DNA of 64,000 nucleotides from Rheinheimera riviphila (GTDB lineage: Bacteria > Pseudomonadota > Gammaproteobacteria > Enterobacterales > Alteromonadaceae): NCBI RefSeq assembly GCF_004005945.1, contig NZ_SACS01000022.1:1-64000 (forward strand). The letters are read 5' to 3'. Shown piece by piece: positions 3,261 through 8,458 of this stretch. The stretch's first letter is position 1. Every line of letters starts with the position of its first letter. The notes under the pieces were generated by a model. The model was given only the letters and a program-made list of their open reading frames with translations. It was not told the DNA's origin and did no database searches. A program made the position numbers and the translations under genes.

Positions 3261-4919
3261 ATGCAGACGTCGGATCCGGCCAAACTTCGTTTTTCCCGTT
3301 ATGGTGCGGGCACGCTACTCCTGTTGTTTGTAGCTTGCCTGTGGCTGGTGTTGCGCCAACCAATGACGCCGCCGCAGTTGCAACCGCTGGAGATTGCCGC
3401 CTGGTGTGATGGTCAGCAAGTTCAGACCATGCCTACAGACTTTCGCGAAGTAGGCTGTCAGCAACAAAACGAAGTGACTGCGGATCCACAACATCGGCTG
3501 CTGTGGCTGCAGCTGCCATTTGAGCTGCCATTTGAAAAAAACCAGCAGTCAACCAGCCCCGCCGCTGTTGAGGCAGCACCACCGCAAGCTCTGTTTATTA
3601 GCGCCAGAGCCTCCAGTGCGGTGTATCTGAATGGCCAGTTGATCGGTCGCAATGGCCGGCCTGGTCTGGCGGCAGATGAAGTGCCGGGGGCGATGGACAG
3701 CCGTTTTTATCTGCCAGCGTCCTTATTGCGCCCTGGTCATAATCAACTGGTGCTGCAAATGTCAGCCCAGCATGGTTGGCTGACGTTAGCGCAACCCATT
3801 CATTTTATTGGTATTGGCCCCTATAGCGATGCCAATGCGCATCTGCAGCGGCACAGTGAACTGGGGTTGGTGCTGCTCGGCATTCTGCTGACCGGGCTGT
3901 TGTATTTCAGCGTATTGGCGCTGCGTAGTCAGCACTCAGGCCCGTTTGTTGATACCAATTCGTCGACCATGCCAAGGCGTTGGCAGGATACGCTGCTGGC
4001 GCTGCTGTGTTTTTTTGCCGCCGGTCAGTTATGGTTGGAAATGGTGCGGGGTCTGGTGGGGTATCTGTATCCGCTGCATGACCTGCGGCTGCTGGCCATT
4101 TTGTTTTGTGCCTGCGGTTTTGGCTGTTGTCTGTTGCTGCTTACAGCGCTGCGTTATCAACGGGCACAATGGCATTACTGGCTGACAGCCACAGTGCTGC
4201 TGACACTGCCGGTGCTGGTATGGCTGGACAGTTTTGATGCGCGTATTGCAGTCGCAACTTTATTACCCATTTGTATTGCAGCCTTGTTGGCTACACTACG
4301 CTGGCGCATCGCTGATAAGCAGGAAGATCCGGCTGCTGACGGTGCCGGTAGCAGTGCCTTGTTATTGTTGTTGTACGTACTGCTCGCGGTACTGCTAACC
4401 GGTATCTTCCAGGAAATCCTGGCTTTTGTGCTGCTGACGCTGCTGCTGTGCGCGTTGTTTATTGAGCAGGCGGTGCAACATCAGCATCAACAACAGTTAC
4501 AACTGGCCGATCAGCAGTTAATTCAGCAATTGCAACTTCAGCTCCAACAACACAGGGTCCCCGAACCAACGGCGAATCTGACGTTAGCCAGCGCCGGTAA
4601 AGTGCAGTTATTGCCGGTTGATGAAATTGCTTATTGTCAGGCGGCGCGCGACTATAGTGAAATCTGGCTGCTGGACGGTCGTCAACAGCTCTATAGCGGC
4701 ACCCTGAGAGCGCTGGAAGAGCAATTACCGGCGCGGTTTATCCGGGTGCACCGCTCTTACCTGGTGAATGTCCGGCACGTCCGGCAATTTCGCACCACCA
4801 CCGATGCCGACAGTGGCAGCGGTGCGGTGTTATTGCTGGCCAGCGGCCAACAGGTGCCGGTCAGCCGCCGGTTGATCCCCGCAGTGCGCAGCGCCATGCA
4901 GGAGGTTGTTGCGGCTTAG
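3261..4919 (+). CDS. membrane-anchored LytTR-type transcriptional regulator
   Basis: A 552-residue protein. Residues 1-35 contain the first hydrophobic segment. A beta-rich extracytoplasmic region of about 150 residues follows, with jelly-roll-like features such as SARASSAVYLNGQLIGRNGR. A cluster of about seven transmembrane helices lies from about residue 195 to 400 and a short Gln-rich coiled coil at about 405-435. The C-terminal LytTR DNA-binding domain (about 440-550) carries the family pattern VDEIAYCQAARDYSEIWL, RFIRVHRSYLVNV and VPVSRR. The architecture resembles 7TM receptors with an extracellular 7TMR-DISM-like sensor directly coupled to LytTR, a one-component membrane regulator. The start has GGAG ten bases upstream. 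It converges with the borosin-type methyltransferase gene, with only 10 bases between the stop codons. Confidence 0.8.
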   Translation: MQTSDPAKLRFSRYGAGTLLLLFVACLWLVLRQPMTPPQLQPLEIAAWCDGQQVQTMPTDFREVGCQQQNEVTADPQHRLLWLQLPFELPFEKNQQSTSPAAVEAAPPQALFISARASSAVYLNGQLIGRNGRPGLAADEVPGAMDSRFYLPASLLRPGHNQLVLQMSAQHGWLTLAQPIHFIGIGPYSDANAHLQRHSELGLVLLGILLTGLLYFSVLALRSQHSGPFVDTNSSTMPRRWQDTLLALLCFFAAGQLWLEMVRGLVGYLYPLHDLRLLAILFCACGFGCCLLLLTALRYQRAQWHYWLTATVLLTLPVLVWLDSFDARIAVATLLPICIAALLATLRWRIADKQEDPAADGAGSSALLLLLYVLLAVLLTGIFQEILAFVLLTLLLCALFIEQAVQHQHQQQLQLADQQLIQQLQLQLQQHRVPEPTANLTLASAGKVQLLPVDEIAYCQAARDYSEIWLLDGRQQLYSGTLRALEEQLPARFIRVHRSYLVNVRHVRQFRTTTDADSGSGAVLLLASGQQVPVSRRLIPAVRSAMQEVVAA

Positions 4920-4929
4920 CGCTGATGCT

Positions 4930-5787
4930 TCAGTTGCTAATCTCAGCGGCCTGATATTCGCCCTCAGGAACTTCAAACTCTGCAGCGGATGCTTCGGCTT
5001 CCAGTTCGGCGGCGCGTATAGCTGCCAGCCGCGCCAGAACCTGCAAGTTTTTTTCAAGTTTGCGGGCAGGGGGCACCACCATGGTGGTTTTCAGGTTCAT
5101 CTCGGCGTCGGGTAATGCTGAGAGTGGTAAATGGGTGATCCGCGCTTGCTGAAAAGGCAGGCTGGCAGCTTCGTATAAAATCACTTCGTGATGAAGTGGA
5201 TAGTGCTCAGCCAGCAAGTCAACTAGCACCTGGCGATAGGCGCCGCCGGTGGCAAAACGGGCGTGGCTTTTATCGCCGGCGATGCCTACTTGCCACAACA
5301 CCAGATAGGCTGTGGGGTCGATATTACGTTGATAAAACATATACTGGCTGGCTTCAAAATACTGACAACCGACTTTACCCGGGTCAATGCCAAGTTCAGC
5401 ATGTAAACAGTCAGCAGAGCTGATACCAGGCTCCATATGAGCGGTGTAACCTTCGGCGCGAGCCAGTTCAATCACCTTATGTGGTGCGTAAGCAAAGACG
5501 CCGGGGTGACCATAAAAAGCACAAACCACCTTTTTGCCGAGCCGCACTTCGACTAGCATTAAATCAATCATCTCTTGATAGGTTACATGGCGCGATTTAC
5601 CTTCAGCATACAGCGGCGCAAAACTACGCACATCTGGATGCATTTCTTTGAGCCAAAGTTCGGTAATTCCATCGGCCACCCCGGCAAAGACCACATCGGC
5701 ATTTTCAATATAACTGCGTGATAACGGGCTGATATGCGAACCTAACGTAATACCGGTGCCAACGATCACAATGCTGCCTGGCTGCAT
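4930..5787 (-). CDS. borosin-type peptide backbone alpha-N-methyltransferase (tetrapyrrole-methylase fold)
   Basis: A 285-residue SAM-dependent enzyme. The N-terminus (IVIVGTGITLGSHISPLSR) and the YGHPGVF and MEPGIS blocks mark the tetrapyrrole-methylase (class III) superfamily. The rest resembles borosin alpha-N-methyltransferases such as SonM of Shewanella oneidensis: LSRSYIENADVVF, FEASQYMFY, LWQVGIAGD and HEVILYEAASLP. Tyr60, Arg66, Tyr70 and Tyr92 have exactly the 6-4-22 spacing of the catalytic Tyr66/Arg72/Tyr76/Tyr98 set of OphMA (recalled from the literature). Cobalamin and siroheme methylases lack this arrangement. No precursor domain is fused. After the catalytic fold comes an Ala/Glu-rich tail of about 30 residues. 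AAGGAA precedes the ATG. It is the last gene of a four-gene operon headed by a candidate precursor peptide, implying a split borosin pathway that methylates peptide-bond nitrogens. Function is inferred and the substrate unproven. Confidence 0.85.
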   Translation of the reverse strand: MQPGSIVIVGTGITLGSHISPLSRSYIENADVVFAGVADGITELWLKEMHPDVRSFAPLYAEGKSRHVTYQEMIDLMLVEVRLGKKVVCAFYGHPGVFAYAPHKVIELARAEGYTAHMEPGISSADCLHAELGIDPGKVGCQYFEASQYMFYQRNIDPTAYLVLWQVGIAGDKSHARFATGGAYRQVLVDLLAEHYPLHHEVILYEAASLPFQQARITHLPLSALPDAEMNLKTTMVVPPARKLEKNLQVLARLAAIRAAELEAEASAAEFEVPEGEYQAAEISN

Positions 5788-5829
5788 GGGAATTCCTTAG
5801 AGTGTTATCAAATGAAACTGCTGTTAAGT

Positions 5830-6438
5830 TCAGGCTTCAGCCAGAGCGGGTTGCGGTTTGTCAAATTGTTGTTCGGAAAATTGCTGGCTGAGTGTGCGCA
5901 GGTAGCTGATGTTGTCGGCAGTTGCATGTAATAAATAGCTATTGAGCTCAGCACTTTTTTTAAGCGCAGCAGGGGCGTCAACAAAACCAAAGTGTTTGAT
6001 ATGTTTCACGGCGCCAAGGTTGCGTGGGTCAACACAGGCCAATAACGCAGGCACTTTTGCGTCAGTAAAACAATGTAAAAACAATGCAGTCAAAGCTTCG
6101 TCGGCGTAACCTAAACCGCGGGCCGTGGCACTTAATATAATACCAAGTTCATAGGGAGCTTCTACAAAGGGTTTGGCTATCAACGAGATAAAACCAATGG
6201 CATCAGTTTGACCCGTCAATTGGATGGCAAAAAAATGCCAGCCGGAATCGGCTTTTTCGGTTTTTTTTAGGCAATTTTTAAAGAACACGGCACTTTGTTC
6301 TTTTTCATAACAAGGCCCGATATATTGCATCGTGACAGGATCAGCATGCAGCCTTTGATAAAGCTCCAGTTCTGAAGACGCAAGTACAGATAAACTTAAA
6401 CGAACGCTTTGAATACACTTTTGAATAGGGTAGATCAT
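5830..6438 (-). CDS. GNAT-family N-acetyltransferase (RimJ/RimL-like) in the borosin operon
   Basis: A 202-residue acetyl-CoA-dependent acetyltransferase of the RimJ/RimL branch. RLSLSVLASSELELYQRLHA forms the N-terminal strand and helix, GFISLI and YELGIILS form the central strands, and ARGLGYADEAL is the acetyl-CoA pyrophosphate-binding loop (R/Q-x-x-G-x-G/A). CVDPRNLGAVKHIKHFGF is the typical final motif with the Asn and the bulge before the last strand. Its ATG overlaps the stop of the GGDEF gene (ATGA), so the two are translationally coupled. The methyltransferase gene starts 42 bases downstream. Members acetylate protein N-termini, antibiotics or small amines. Because of its position it may tailor the peptide product or give self-protection, but this is inference. 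Confidence 0.8.
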   Translation of the reverse strand: MIYPIQKCIQSVRLSLSVLASSELELYQRLHADPVTMQYIGPCYEKEQSAVFFKNCLKKTEKADSGWHFFAIQLTGQTDAIGFISLIAKPFVEAPYELGIILSATARGLGYADEALTALFLHCFTDAKVPALLACVDPRNLGAVKHIKHFGFVDAPAALKKSAELNSYLLHATADNISYLRTLSQQFSEQQFDKPQPALAEA

Positions 6439-8186
6439 AGGACGGCAGTAGCGCTTTCTTTTTGTTGCGTAGGTTCAAATAGCGTCACTTTATTACGCCC
6501 CTGATTTTTTGACAAATAAAGGGCGATATCGGCATCTCGGAACAGTTGCCGTAGTTCATAACCAGAGCGGTCGGAACATGTGACACCAAAGCTGGCGGTT
6601 ATTTTAATGGGGTAGCCACTACCGTTACAGTCAATTTCTTCTATTGCATCACGTAAAATTTCGGCTAATAAAGCGGCTTTTTCGGCGGTACAGGCTGGTA
6701 AAAAGATGGCAAATTCTTCACCTCCAATACGGCCAAAAATATCCACATTACGCACGAACTGTCGGCAATGGCTAACAACAGCTTTTAACACCCAATCGCC
6801 GGTTAAATGACCATATAGGTCGTTCACTTGTTTAAACCAATCTAAATCAAAAATAATAAAAGCATCAGTCTGGCTTGTGGTTTTACTGCTACTAAGTAGT
6901 AGAGCAACTACTTTGGTAAAATAATATCTATTACTAATACCAACTAAACTATCGTTTTCAGCAATTTTCCGGTAAATGCGGGTATTACGAAATGCTCTAA
7001 AGGCAAAATAGCCCAATACCATTAAGATTGTTAAAAGCAGAGTAATAAACAGTTTTTTATTGTCATTTTCTACAGTCGCCAGTTCATTCTCAAGCGTTAG
7101 TAAAGTGTTGCTTTTTTCTAGCAGTGCAATCTGTTGGTTTTTATTTATGATTTCGTTTTTTGCCAAGTTGTAAGCGGTTTGCTGTAGCGAGATGGTGTTT
7201 TTGAATATTTTATCCGCTTCAATATATTGCTTATAAAATTTAAGTGCAGTGCTGGTGTTACCAAGCTTTTCTTCAATTTCTGCTTTTAATTTTAAACCAT
7301 TGACCATTGGCTCACTTGAGAATGATATGTTTTTAATTTTAAAAAAATTATCAAGGGTTTTGCTAGCGGTGACGGTGTCATTTAAAAAATACTGCGCCTG
7401 ACTCAATGTAACGTAATAGTGTCCTACTAAATGGACCGGGCCAATATCTTCGGCAGCACGCTTATGAAAATTCAGTACACTTTCAGCTTTTTCGAATTCT
7501 TTATGAAACAGATGGTACTTTGCAACCAACACCTGACCATACAATGCCATAATTGGTAGATTATGGCTTTTACAGTAATTTATACCATTCTGTATTTGAC
7601 TTAATTCAATTTTCTCTGGAGTCAGCTCTTGCGTACTGTAATTGTTGTAAAACAAGGCATTACAACGAGATAGTCCTTGAACGCCAGTATCCAGCAGTTC
7701 CTGACTAGTATCTATTGTCTCCTGATAAAGCTTTAACGTCATATAGGTAATGATTGCTTGCACTTTTACACTTGGTTTTAATTCTGGATTTGAAACTTTA
7801 TCAACAAGCTCAGATGCCTGGAACAAATAGCTAAAAGCAGCAGTCATATTTTGTTTAACGGTCATGACATTAGAGAGCAATAACAGAGTACGATATTGTA
7901 AATCAACAGAATTTCCAGTGATCAATGCTTGTTGGTACAGTCGGATTGCTTCATCATGATCGCCGATGACTTGCGTCTGGGAACCTAGGAGATAATAATA
8001 ATATTGTTGCTGATTTTCTGTCAGTTTGTGTTTGGAGATTTGTTTTAATAATATTTGTAGTTCGCTGGGATTTGACGTTCTTGCTTTATCTGCTCGATCA
8101 AATAAAGAGTCTAAACTGGGTTCTGCTGAAGATGGTACTGCTACAAACAGCAATACCACGCTCAAAAGTGTAAGAAGCTTTTTCAC
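6435..8186 (-). CDS. TPR-repeat membrane diguanylate cyclase (GGDEF)
   Basis: A 583-residue protein with a signal peptide (first about 21 residues, LLSVVLLFVAVPSSA) and an extracytoplasmic helical region with TPR-like repeats (about 25-350). A short coiled coil and one transmembrane helix follow (LFITLLLTILMVLGYFAF, near 385-405). The C-terminal GGDEF domain contains SLVGISNR, FDLDWFKQVND and the active site GGEEF at 488-492. RNVD at 479-482, five residues ahead, matches the allosteric inhibitory I-site. It is therefore probably an active, product-inhibited diguanylate cyclase making c-di-GMP. Translation starts at a GTG eight bases after the stop of the candidate precursor gene, without a clear ribosome-binding site, which suggests coupling. 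It overlaps the acetyltransferase gene by four bases. No EAL domain is present. Confidence 0.88.
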   Translation of the reverse strand: MKKLLTLLSVVLLFVAVPSSAEPSLDSLFDRADKARTSNPSELQILLKQISKHKLTENQQQYYYYLLGSQTQVIGDHDEAIRLYQQALITGNSVDLQYRTLLLLSNVMTVKQNMTAAFSYLFQASELVDKVSNPELKPSVKVQAIITYMTLKLYQETIDTSQELLDTGVQGLSRCNALFYNNYSTQELTPEKIELSQIQNGINYCKSHNLPIMALYGQVLVAKYHLFHKEFEKAESVLNFHKRAAEDIGPVHLVGHYYVTLSQAQYFLNDTVTASKTLDNFFKIKNISFSSEPMVNGLKLKAEIEEKLGNTSTALKFYKQYIEADKIFKNTISLQQTAYNLAKNEIINKNQQIALLEKSNTLLTLENELATVENDNKKLFITLLLTILMVLGYFAFRAFRNTRIYRKIAENDSLVGISNRYYFTKVVALLLSSSKTTSQTDAFIIFDLDWFKQVNDLYGHLTGDWVLKAVVSHCRQFVRNVDIFGRIGGEEFAIFLPACTAEKAALLAEILRDAIEEIDCNGSGYPIKITASFGVTCSDRSGYELRQLFRDADIALYLSKNQGRNKVTLFEPTQQKESATAVL

Positions 8187-8194
8187 TTTAATTA

Positions 8195-8458
8195 TTATTG
8201 AAAATGAACTGACTGTTTAGTCGGTTGTTCTTCTTGTTCAACAGGCTGCTCTTCTTCCTCTGCAGGGTGCTCTGTCACACAACGATAAACCGGTACTTCC
8301 AACAATTCAGAGAGTGCTTCAACATTGCCTTGTAACAAGGCTTCTAATTGATTTTTGTCTGTTGCCGCATCGCTAAACATCGCCATCAGTTGTGCCTGAC
8401 TTAATTGCTGTAATGCTGCATTGGTGCCCAGTTGCTCGATAACATGGATCAGTGACAT
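8195..8458 (-). CDS. candidate split-borosin precursor peptide
   Basis: An 87-residue peptide starting MSLIHVIEQLG; AGGGATAG lies just upstream of the ATG, which makes this start better than the longer in-frame one at 8509. Residues 2-55 are predicted to be a bundle of short amphipathic helices ending in LEALLQGNVEALSELL. This resembles the leader/binding domain of SonA-type borosin precursors and, more distantly, Nif11-like leaders. A short hydrophobic stretch, VPVYRCVTEHP (55-65), follows and is the likeliest site of backbone N-methylation. The tail is acidic and repetitive (EEEEQPVEQEEQP), ending KQSVHFQ. It is the first gene of the operon that ends with the borosin-type methyltransferase, 3.3 kb away. 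The core assignment is inference; a non-RiPP small acidic protein remains possible. Confidence 0.65.
   Translation of the reverse strand: MSLIHVIEQLGTNAALQQLSQAQLMAMFSDAATDKNQLEALLQGNVEALSELLEVPVYRCVTEHPAEEEEQPVEQEEQPTKQSVHFQ

Follow-up and report, generated by a model that had tools for sequence, protein, structure and literature searches.

This analysis concerns four genes at positions 4930-8458 of a 64,000-nucleotide stretch of Rheinheimera riviphila DNA (the window: contig NZ_SACS01000022.1, positions 1 to 64,000). Because one of them encodes a SonM-type methyltransferase and another an 87-residue homologue of SonA, it is nearly certain, as judged by the comparisons below, that they form a split borosin operon (type IV-like). 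All four open reading frames (ORFs) lie on the minus strand and follow one another, in transcription order, with an 8-base gap, an overlap of 4 bases and a 42-base gap, a layout that an original prediction made from the letters of the window had described and that the ORF coordinates confirm. Precursor and methyltransferase stand 2.4 kb apart in this four-gene run, which matches the close encoding of split borosins; AGGGA lies 5' of the precursor start and AAGGAA 5' of the methyltransferase start. Pfam matches within the operon are PF00590 (E 3.5e-21), GGDEF (E 4.9e-37) and Acetyltransf_3 (E 4.3e-20), and the closest named relative of the locus is that of Rheinheimera sp. SA_1, whose methyltransferase is 98% identical. 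TPR stands for tetratricopeptide repeat.

8195..8458, minus strand: borosin precursor, SonA homologue (87 residues, ATG start)
8300..8458, minus strand: borosin-binding domain (leader), precursor residues 1-53, five predicted helices like SonA 1-53
8258..8296, minus strand: putative methylated segment, assigned by position, precursor residues 55-67 (VPVYRCVTEHPAE)
8198..8257, minus strand: hypervariable acidic C-terminal tail, precursor residues 68-87, the most variable of the three precursor regions
6435..8186, minus strand: TPR sensor with GGDEF output (583 residues, GTG start)
8124..8186, minus strand: putative signal peptide, sensor residues 1-21 (cut after ..VPSSA), read from the sequence
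7263..8114, minus strand: TPR-like solenoid, sensor residues 25-308, thought periplasmic (AlphaFold)
6999..7052, minus strand: transmembrane segment, sensor residues 379-396, read from the sequence
6711..6752, minus strand: cyclase motifs RxxD (residues 479-482) and GGEEF (residues 488-492), from the sequence
5830..6438, minus strand: GNAT acetyltransferase (202 residues; PF13302, Acetyltransf_3, E 4.3e-20)
4930..5787, minus strand: SonM-type backbone N-methyltransferase (285 residues; phmmer E 1.2e-80 to 7ltc_A)

Enzyme, precursor and sensor

The methyltransferase had been predicted to be of the borosin kind, and this is borne out: phmmer gives E 1.2e-80 against SonM and E 1e-38 to 1e-46 against fungal OphMA-type borosin enzymes, whereas the best match to a cobalamin or precorrin methylase, which is also the closest non-borosin match, has E 0.11. 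Identity to SonM extends over 131 of 255 aligned residues. Eight positions were checked, seven described as functional in SonM in passages of PMC8429565 together with Y93, which we added; seven of the eight are kept (Y58, R67, Y71, Y93, F99, E146 and W166), and Q178 is replaced by R. A cobalamin or siroheme methylase accompanied by an unrelated small ORF would be conceivable insofar as PF00590 is a generic family and the top NCBIfam match of the enzyme is YabN (E 1.1e-12), although at 47.7 bits this is far below the cut-off of 525, and the other tetrapyrrole methylase scores are likewise far below theirs (best cobalamin/siroheme-type score 21.1 bits vs 259.65). With E-values down to 1e-80 for SonM as against at least 0.11 for precorrin methylases, and with a SonA homologue in the same operon, this explanation is already contradicted and we give it a negligible probability; in the sequence comparison that the prediction had proposed as a check, the enzyme does not group with cobalamin methylases, and that identity is rejected.

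As a single-sequence query the precursor retrieved no relative in Pfam, NCBIfam or sequence searches. A profile of 18 precursor homologues, none of them from named Shewanella loci, matches SonA in the PDB with E 3.3e-7, and the best chain other than SonA reaches E 0.4; one row of the precursor alignment (A3) is probably misaligned at its start. The AlphaFold model (mean pLDDT 78.5, pTM 0.55) has five helices within residues 3-53, and Foldseek with this model places SonA chains at ranks 1-11, albeit with weak E-values (0.48-2.6). Residues 1-53 of SonA form a five-helix borosin-binding domain according to passages of PMC8429565. The segment at residues 55-67 follows the corresponding domain directly, at the point where the SonA alignment enters the SonA core, and is conserved among relatives. 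This core-like segment is succeeded by an acidic tail of about 20 residues, as against the hydrophobic C-terminal core of split borosins. The profile match and the predicted helices uphold the proposal that the 87-residue helical peptide is the precursor, and from its homology it is probably backbone-methylated. The first precursor of Rheinheimera sp. SA_1 differs from that of the window at 3 of the first 62 residues and is 24% identical thereafter, which is the conserved-leader, variable-tail pattern of RiPPs (ribosomally synthesized and post-translationally modified peptides). Three tandem precursor genes are present in SA_1 (L002:2066-3594); the first and second resemble the window precursor, and the third, adjoining the sensor, is divergent.

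The original prediction treated the second gene as a cyclic di-GMP (c-di-GMP) enzyme and did not include the signal-peptide-like start, TPR-like solenoid and transmembrane segment of its product. AlphaFold (mean pLDDT 88.8) models a helical solenoid at residues 25-308, one long helix at 311-410 and then the GGDEF domain. The marks of a diguanylate cyclase are present: membership of the GGDEF family, a GG(D/E)EF catalytic motif and an inhibitory RxxD, the two motifs being invariant or nearly so in a 23-sequence alignment. In Foldseek searches with the sensor model only GGDEF-type structures appear among the best 50 rows, and the solenoid has no separate match there. Because the protein has a signal-peptide-like start, one transmembrane segment and paired cysteines, the solenoid is predicted to be periplasmic and anchored in the membrane. 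Of 141 aligned rows, 111 carry both cysteines, Cys175 (7662-7664) and Cys205 (7572-7574), and a single row carries exactly one of them, a pairing that would be as expected for a periplasmic disulfide; a rough count finds an uncharged stretch of 12 residues within the first 90 residues of 107 of 137 sensors.

The partners of SonM-like genes

SonM-like genes were found in 34 of 60 close genomes, in 95 of 394 genomes of the order and in 10 of 369 of the class, the window's own genome being counted each time. We examined 151 methyltransferase genes in 146 loci, the window (L054) included; L055, a copy of L006, was removed, the identical loci L011 and L125 were both counted, other duplicates may remain, and loci L001, L025-L053, L093-L098 and L184 were left uncounted. 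By motif, 99 of the 151 genes have a GGDEF gene within 2.5 kb, 20 a histidine kinase without GGDEF, and 32 neither. A TPR profile that combines 95 N-terminal halves of GGDEF-type partners matches an ORF within the same distance of 139 of the 151 (136 distinct sensor genes, on the same strand in 135 of the 139 cases), and these partners include proteins with degenerate GGDEF domains, others that lack an output domain and genes truncated where a contig ends. Matches at E<1e-10 number 0.70 per kb in the nearest 500 bp, and past 2.5 kb their density is down to 0-0.007 per kb. In 124 of the 139, a simple ORF rule places a small ORF ahead of the sensor start, at a distance of -80 to 500 bases, although a few of these ORFs look spurious.

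The same N-terminal half is found on kinases. In a set of 23 kinase sequences, the partners of 21 methyltransferase genes have N-termini that match the GGDEF-type TPR profile with E 1e-12 to 8e-99, and the other two (L004, L005) flank loci with a TPR-GGDEF gene on the other side. Pfam finds TPR together with HisKA in L090, L091 and L100, HisKA without a TPR match in L080, and TPR without an output domain in L178; the sensors of L090, L091, L100 and L178 pass the Pfam TPR cut-off. The pairing of methyltransferase and sensor, recurring at 139 of 151 genes, is far beyond chance, and since the partner recurs with GGDEF, kinase or no output, the constant companion of SonM-type genes is, as far as sequences tell, the TPR membrane sensor rather than c-di-GMP. 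The tie between backbone methylation and c-di-GMP signalling that had been put forward from the window is therefore too narrow. Nor is it supported that a c-di-GMP enzyme gives the operon a variant layout: a TPR-GGDEF gene accompanies most of the SonM-type genes examined, among them that of L141, where both SonM and SonA seem by eye almost the same as the crystal proteins and the TPR-GGDEF gene directly follows the precursor; what does stand is the gene order, sensor before methyltransferase, which is that of a minority (19 of 139). A one-off meeting of borosin and c-di-GMP genes is rejected, as the set recurs widely.

Two further searches addressed the sensor family itself. The window's own TPR region, used as query in 60 genomes, gave 25 matches, all at SonM-like loci. 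A wider TPR profile, made from GGDEF-type sensors only and run on 394 genomes with up to six candidates per genome scored, gave at least 150 matches; of the 150 listed, to which the analysis was confined, 131 lie within 8 kb of a SonM-like gene.

Twelve of the 151 genes are without a TPR-profile ORF: six distant ones (L102-L107), two second copies (L132 and L142), and L179, L118, L160 and L183. The sensor of L179 is apparently cut by a contig end. L118 (7319-8065) has a SonM-like gene with two near-identical precursors, a GNAT gene, an aspartyl-protease-like fragment and no sensor, and is possibly a decaying locus; L183 (600-2516) has a 638-residue ORF with a SonM-like domain, a possible fused borosin. 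At L132:4340-4774, at L142:6118-6321 and with the second enzyme of L072, second SonM-like genes go with multi-core precursors of repeated or several short cores (in that of L132, SHKALIITPKAQA is repeated several times), so that a multi-core borosin type stands beside the sensor type. The distant borosin-like enzymes of L103 and L105, without a TPR match, have a small ORF upstream and, by eye, a gene downstream resembling the major facilitator superfamily, possibly an exporter.

GNAT relatives lie within 2.5 kb of only 72 of the 151 methyltransferase genes, so the acetyltransferase is optional in borosin loci. A pepsin-type aspartyl protease (PF00026) recurs within 3.5 kb of 30 of the 151 and is a candidate leader protease; it is found at L132:5680-6987 and at 28 other loci, the L132 copy alone having been run through Pfam. 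Beside the operon of the window, at 3261-4919 on the opposite strand, a LytTR-like regulator with membrane segments (by eye) ends 10 bases from the operon end; it is present in SA_1 and has no match in L003-L005.

Polymorphism of precursor and sensor

When the window is compared with SA_1, segments longer than 1 kb align at 84-90% nucleotide identity, and the TPR stretch (7237-8241) yields no aligned segment longer than 150 bases. The N-terminal half of the sensor is 54% identical, its cyclase part 87% and the methyltransferase, as noted above, 98%. In the same two genomes, the N-terminal parts of 26 other cyclase ortholog pairs are 78-98% identical; these pairs were drawn from the best 30 of 57 and the best 30 of 60 GGDEF matches, and were dropped where GGDEF identity was below 70% or the N-terminal part shorter than 120 residues. 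Synonymous divergence between window and SA_1 is 0.23 in the methyltransferase, 1.43 in the cyclase part and 1.56 in the precursor, and is saturated in the TPR part. Being high in precursor and sensor and low in the methyltransferase, it points to replacement of the former two by an old allele.

Across 11 species of the genus, the methyltransferase and cyclase parts are 90-99% identical, while the sensors fall into groups that are 46-60% identical between and 77-99% within, and the precursors follow the same groups. Precursor and sensor thus co-vary while the processing enzyme is conserved, as at polymorphic peptide-receptor loci. Over the 55 pairs of these species, synonymous divergence (pS) of the precursor correlates with that of the TPR part at 0.92, as compared with 0.43 for the methyltransferase and 0.49 for an upstream control gene. 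TPR and cyclase parts have similar synonymous divergence (0.71 vs 0.62) and amino-acid change that differs 12-fold (0.281 vs 0.024).

We extended this to 90 of the 139 pairs by requiring a GGDEF motif, a detected precursor and a sensor no shorter than 500 residues; loci with two enzymes count twice here, each time with one and the same sensor, and some long precursor ORFs (e.g. L058) were truncated at the N-terminus. In partial Mantel tests, whose p-values treat related loci as exchangeable, do not fully control relatedness and are indicative only, TPR and precursor distances correlate given methyltransferase and cyclase (r 0.38, p 0.0005), and cyclase and precursor distances do not given the others (r -0.003). 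Precursor regions, taken from full ORFs, were also compared with the sensor. In the 11 species the correlation is 0.80 for the tail and 0.71 for the binding domain, and over 33 sequences a weak one is seen for the putative methylated segment (0.35, p 0.0005); the p-values of this comparison, too, are indicative only.

In the pair L070/L071, the methyltransferase and eight flanking genes have diverged to a pS of 0.39-0.61, as against 0.18-0.19 for sensor and GNAT and 0.28 for the precursor. Since sensor, GNAT and precursor are all below the methyltransferase and flanks, this pair is, on its divergence profile, one clean recent transfer of the three genes together.

A possible receptor for a borosin peptide

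Because a membrane sensor with swappable outputs varies as a matched pair with the precursor, we propose, with confidence slightly above even, that the sensor is a polymorphic TPR receptor and the peptide encoded with it its ligand. By strong homology, the N-terminal binding domain of the precursor would dock on the methyltransferase, which would N-methylate the backbone just past that domain. The precursor would then be cut and the peptide would reach the periplasm or the outside, bind the TPR solenoid of the co-encoded membrane protein, and through the long helix of the sensor change the c-di-GMP output of the GGDEF domain. In relatives the same kind of sensor would drive a histidine kinase or have no output, the common theme being peptide and TPR receptor, and precursor and sensor would go together as matched alleles and have a separate history, with the methyltransferase staying in place, as at polymorphic pheromone loci. 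More tentatively, and short of even confidence, SonM-type split borosins in general may be intercellular or self-sensed signals, in which a permeable methylated peptide with no dedicated exporter meets a TPR receptor in the periplasm whose output (c-di-GMP or phosphorelay) can be swapped, and in which specificity groups resembling those of pheromones can be exchanged among species. Backbone N-methylation favours membrane permeability according to passages of PMC8429565, and we speculate that the peptide might need no exporter.

Such a locus would have parallels among known peptide signalling systems. ComQXPA and agr-type loci likewise hold a modifying enzyme, a precursor and a membrane receptor together, and their precursor and receptor sensor vary as allele groups; here, by contrast, the modification is a predicted backbone N-methylation, the sensor a TPR-like solenoid, and the system known from sequences alone. 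RRNPP receptors are TPR proteins of the cytoplasm that recognise short peptides as signals; they have a DNA-binding or phosphatase-type N-terminus, and their targets are DNA or phosphatases. The proposed receptor would share with them a TPR-type domain for peptide signals, but it is predicted to be periplasmic and membrane-anchored with a GGDEF or kinase output, and falls outside the RRNPP definition. Within the borosin family, the nearest system is SonM/SonA of Shewanella oneidensis, which shares with the window a separate methyltransferase and precursor and, relative to passages of PMC8429565, the catalytic residues and the five-helix binding domain; the near-identical SonMA locus L141 shares the TPR-GGDEF gene too. 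The window differs in its order of precursor, sensor, GNAT and methyltransferase, in having a GNAT gene at all, and in the acidic tail of its precursor, which is missing from SonA.

In the literature, the legend of Figure 1 of PMC11395268 (2024), as contained in passages of that paper, names a GGDEF-containing domain among borosin architectures; the TPR domain, periplasmic sensor, kinase-type partners and co-variation found here go beyond those passages. Passages of PMC8429565, PMC11395268 and PMC11285071 describe the methylation mechanism of bacterial split borosins and not their role. Our literature search found no borosin work on diguanylate or tetratricopeptide, although Imani 2022, Cho 2022 and Lee et al. 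may describe the sensor; it returned one marine-peptide work for borosin with histidine kinase, and mostly fungal works for borosin with pheromone.

A number of results weigh against the receptor proposal. Some concern the sensor: the TPR matches of the window protein in Pfam are all below cut-off (best TPR_12, 25.8 bits vs 30.1), TPR profiles can match unrelated TPRs, and the loci surveyed are phylogenetically clustered, with some duplicates. With the window's own TPR region as query, no match at E 1e-8 turned up in 11 of the 34 genomes that carry a SonM-like gene, and with the wider profile 34 of 143 listed methyltransferases have no listed TPR match within 8 kb (109 have one). Nineteen of the 150 listed TPR matches are solo, away from any listed methyltransferase, and the 18 loci that hold them have no detectable methyltransferase or precursor. 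Others concern export and processing, for the operon's four genes include neither an exporter nor a protease, and the aspartyl protease known from other loci had no match in the window genome, in a search made without a known positive control. Still others concern the co-variation. In the 90-locus test methyltransferase and precursor also correlate (partial r 0.30, p 0.0005), and in the 11 species the putative methylated segment is nearly constant and does not significantly track the sensor (partial r 0.26, p 0.11), so that the methylated core as the co-varying ligand is not supported in this clade; from this pattern, the variable ligand may be the tail rather than the methylated segment. Recent sharing in L062/L063 and L064/L069 was considered and rejected, since the genes around them are roughly as similar as the sensor is, and because precursor and sensor lie next to each other, joint recombination could by itself produce correlated histories.

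A sensor family exclusive to borosin loci is also rejected: all 25 matches to the window's own TPR region fell at SonM-like loci, but the solo profile matches do not. Thirteen of the 19 solo matches are in genomes that have the system elsewhere, and the solo sensors (L245-L262) are perhaps eavesdropping receptors.

The competing explanation that we take most seriously, while regarding it as rather unlikely, is that the operon is an ordinary split-borosin product cluster whose TPR-GGDEF or TPR-kinase protein is a local regulator that answers to a different cue (envelope stress or nutrients, for example) and switches peptide production. RiPP clusters often carry regulators, the solo matches imply that the sensor can work without the peptide, and the lack of an exporter or protease in the window operon would suit this explanation as well; the co-variation of sensor and precursor, in which methyltransferase and cyclase domain take part far less, speaks against it, as does the 78-98% identity of other cyclase sensors in the same genomes. 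Compatible with such a regulator, and itself improbable, is hitch-hiking, in which precursor and sensor merely share a recombining stretch and the rapid evolution of the sensor has an unrelated cause. The two genes adjoin each other, both with raised synonymous divergence, binding domain and tail both correlate with the TPR part, and GNAT moved too in L070/L071, but hitch-hiking fits poorly with the cyclase domain, which belongs to the same gene and has comparable pS, yet shows 12 times less amino-acid change and is uncorrelated with the precursor after control.

We consider a little less probable again a polymorphic antagonistic system, with an antimicrobial peptide and a TPR membrane protein serving as an element of self-recognition, immunity or competition sensing. 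Bacteriocin-immunity loci, too, are marked by diverse and exchanged alleles, some TPR proteins lack an output domain (L178, by Pfam) and SA_1 keeps two extra precursors; most partners, however, end in signalling domains, for which immunity proteins would have no need.

Should the receptor proposal be correct, signalling through such a receptor would be a new use for the borosin family of peptides, a backbone-methylated class would join the known peptide signals, and c-di-GMP sensors would gain a possible type of ligand. If each precursor has a dedicated, co-varying receptor, the function would be directly testable in Shewanella oneidensis and Rheinheimera, where the allele groups offer ready cognate and non-cognate pairs for tests of specificity.

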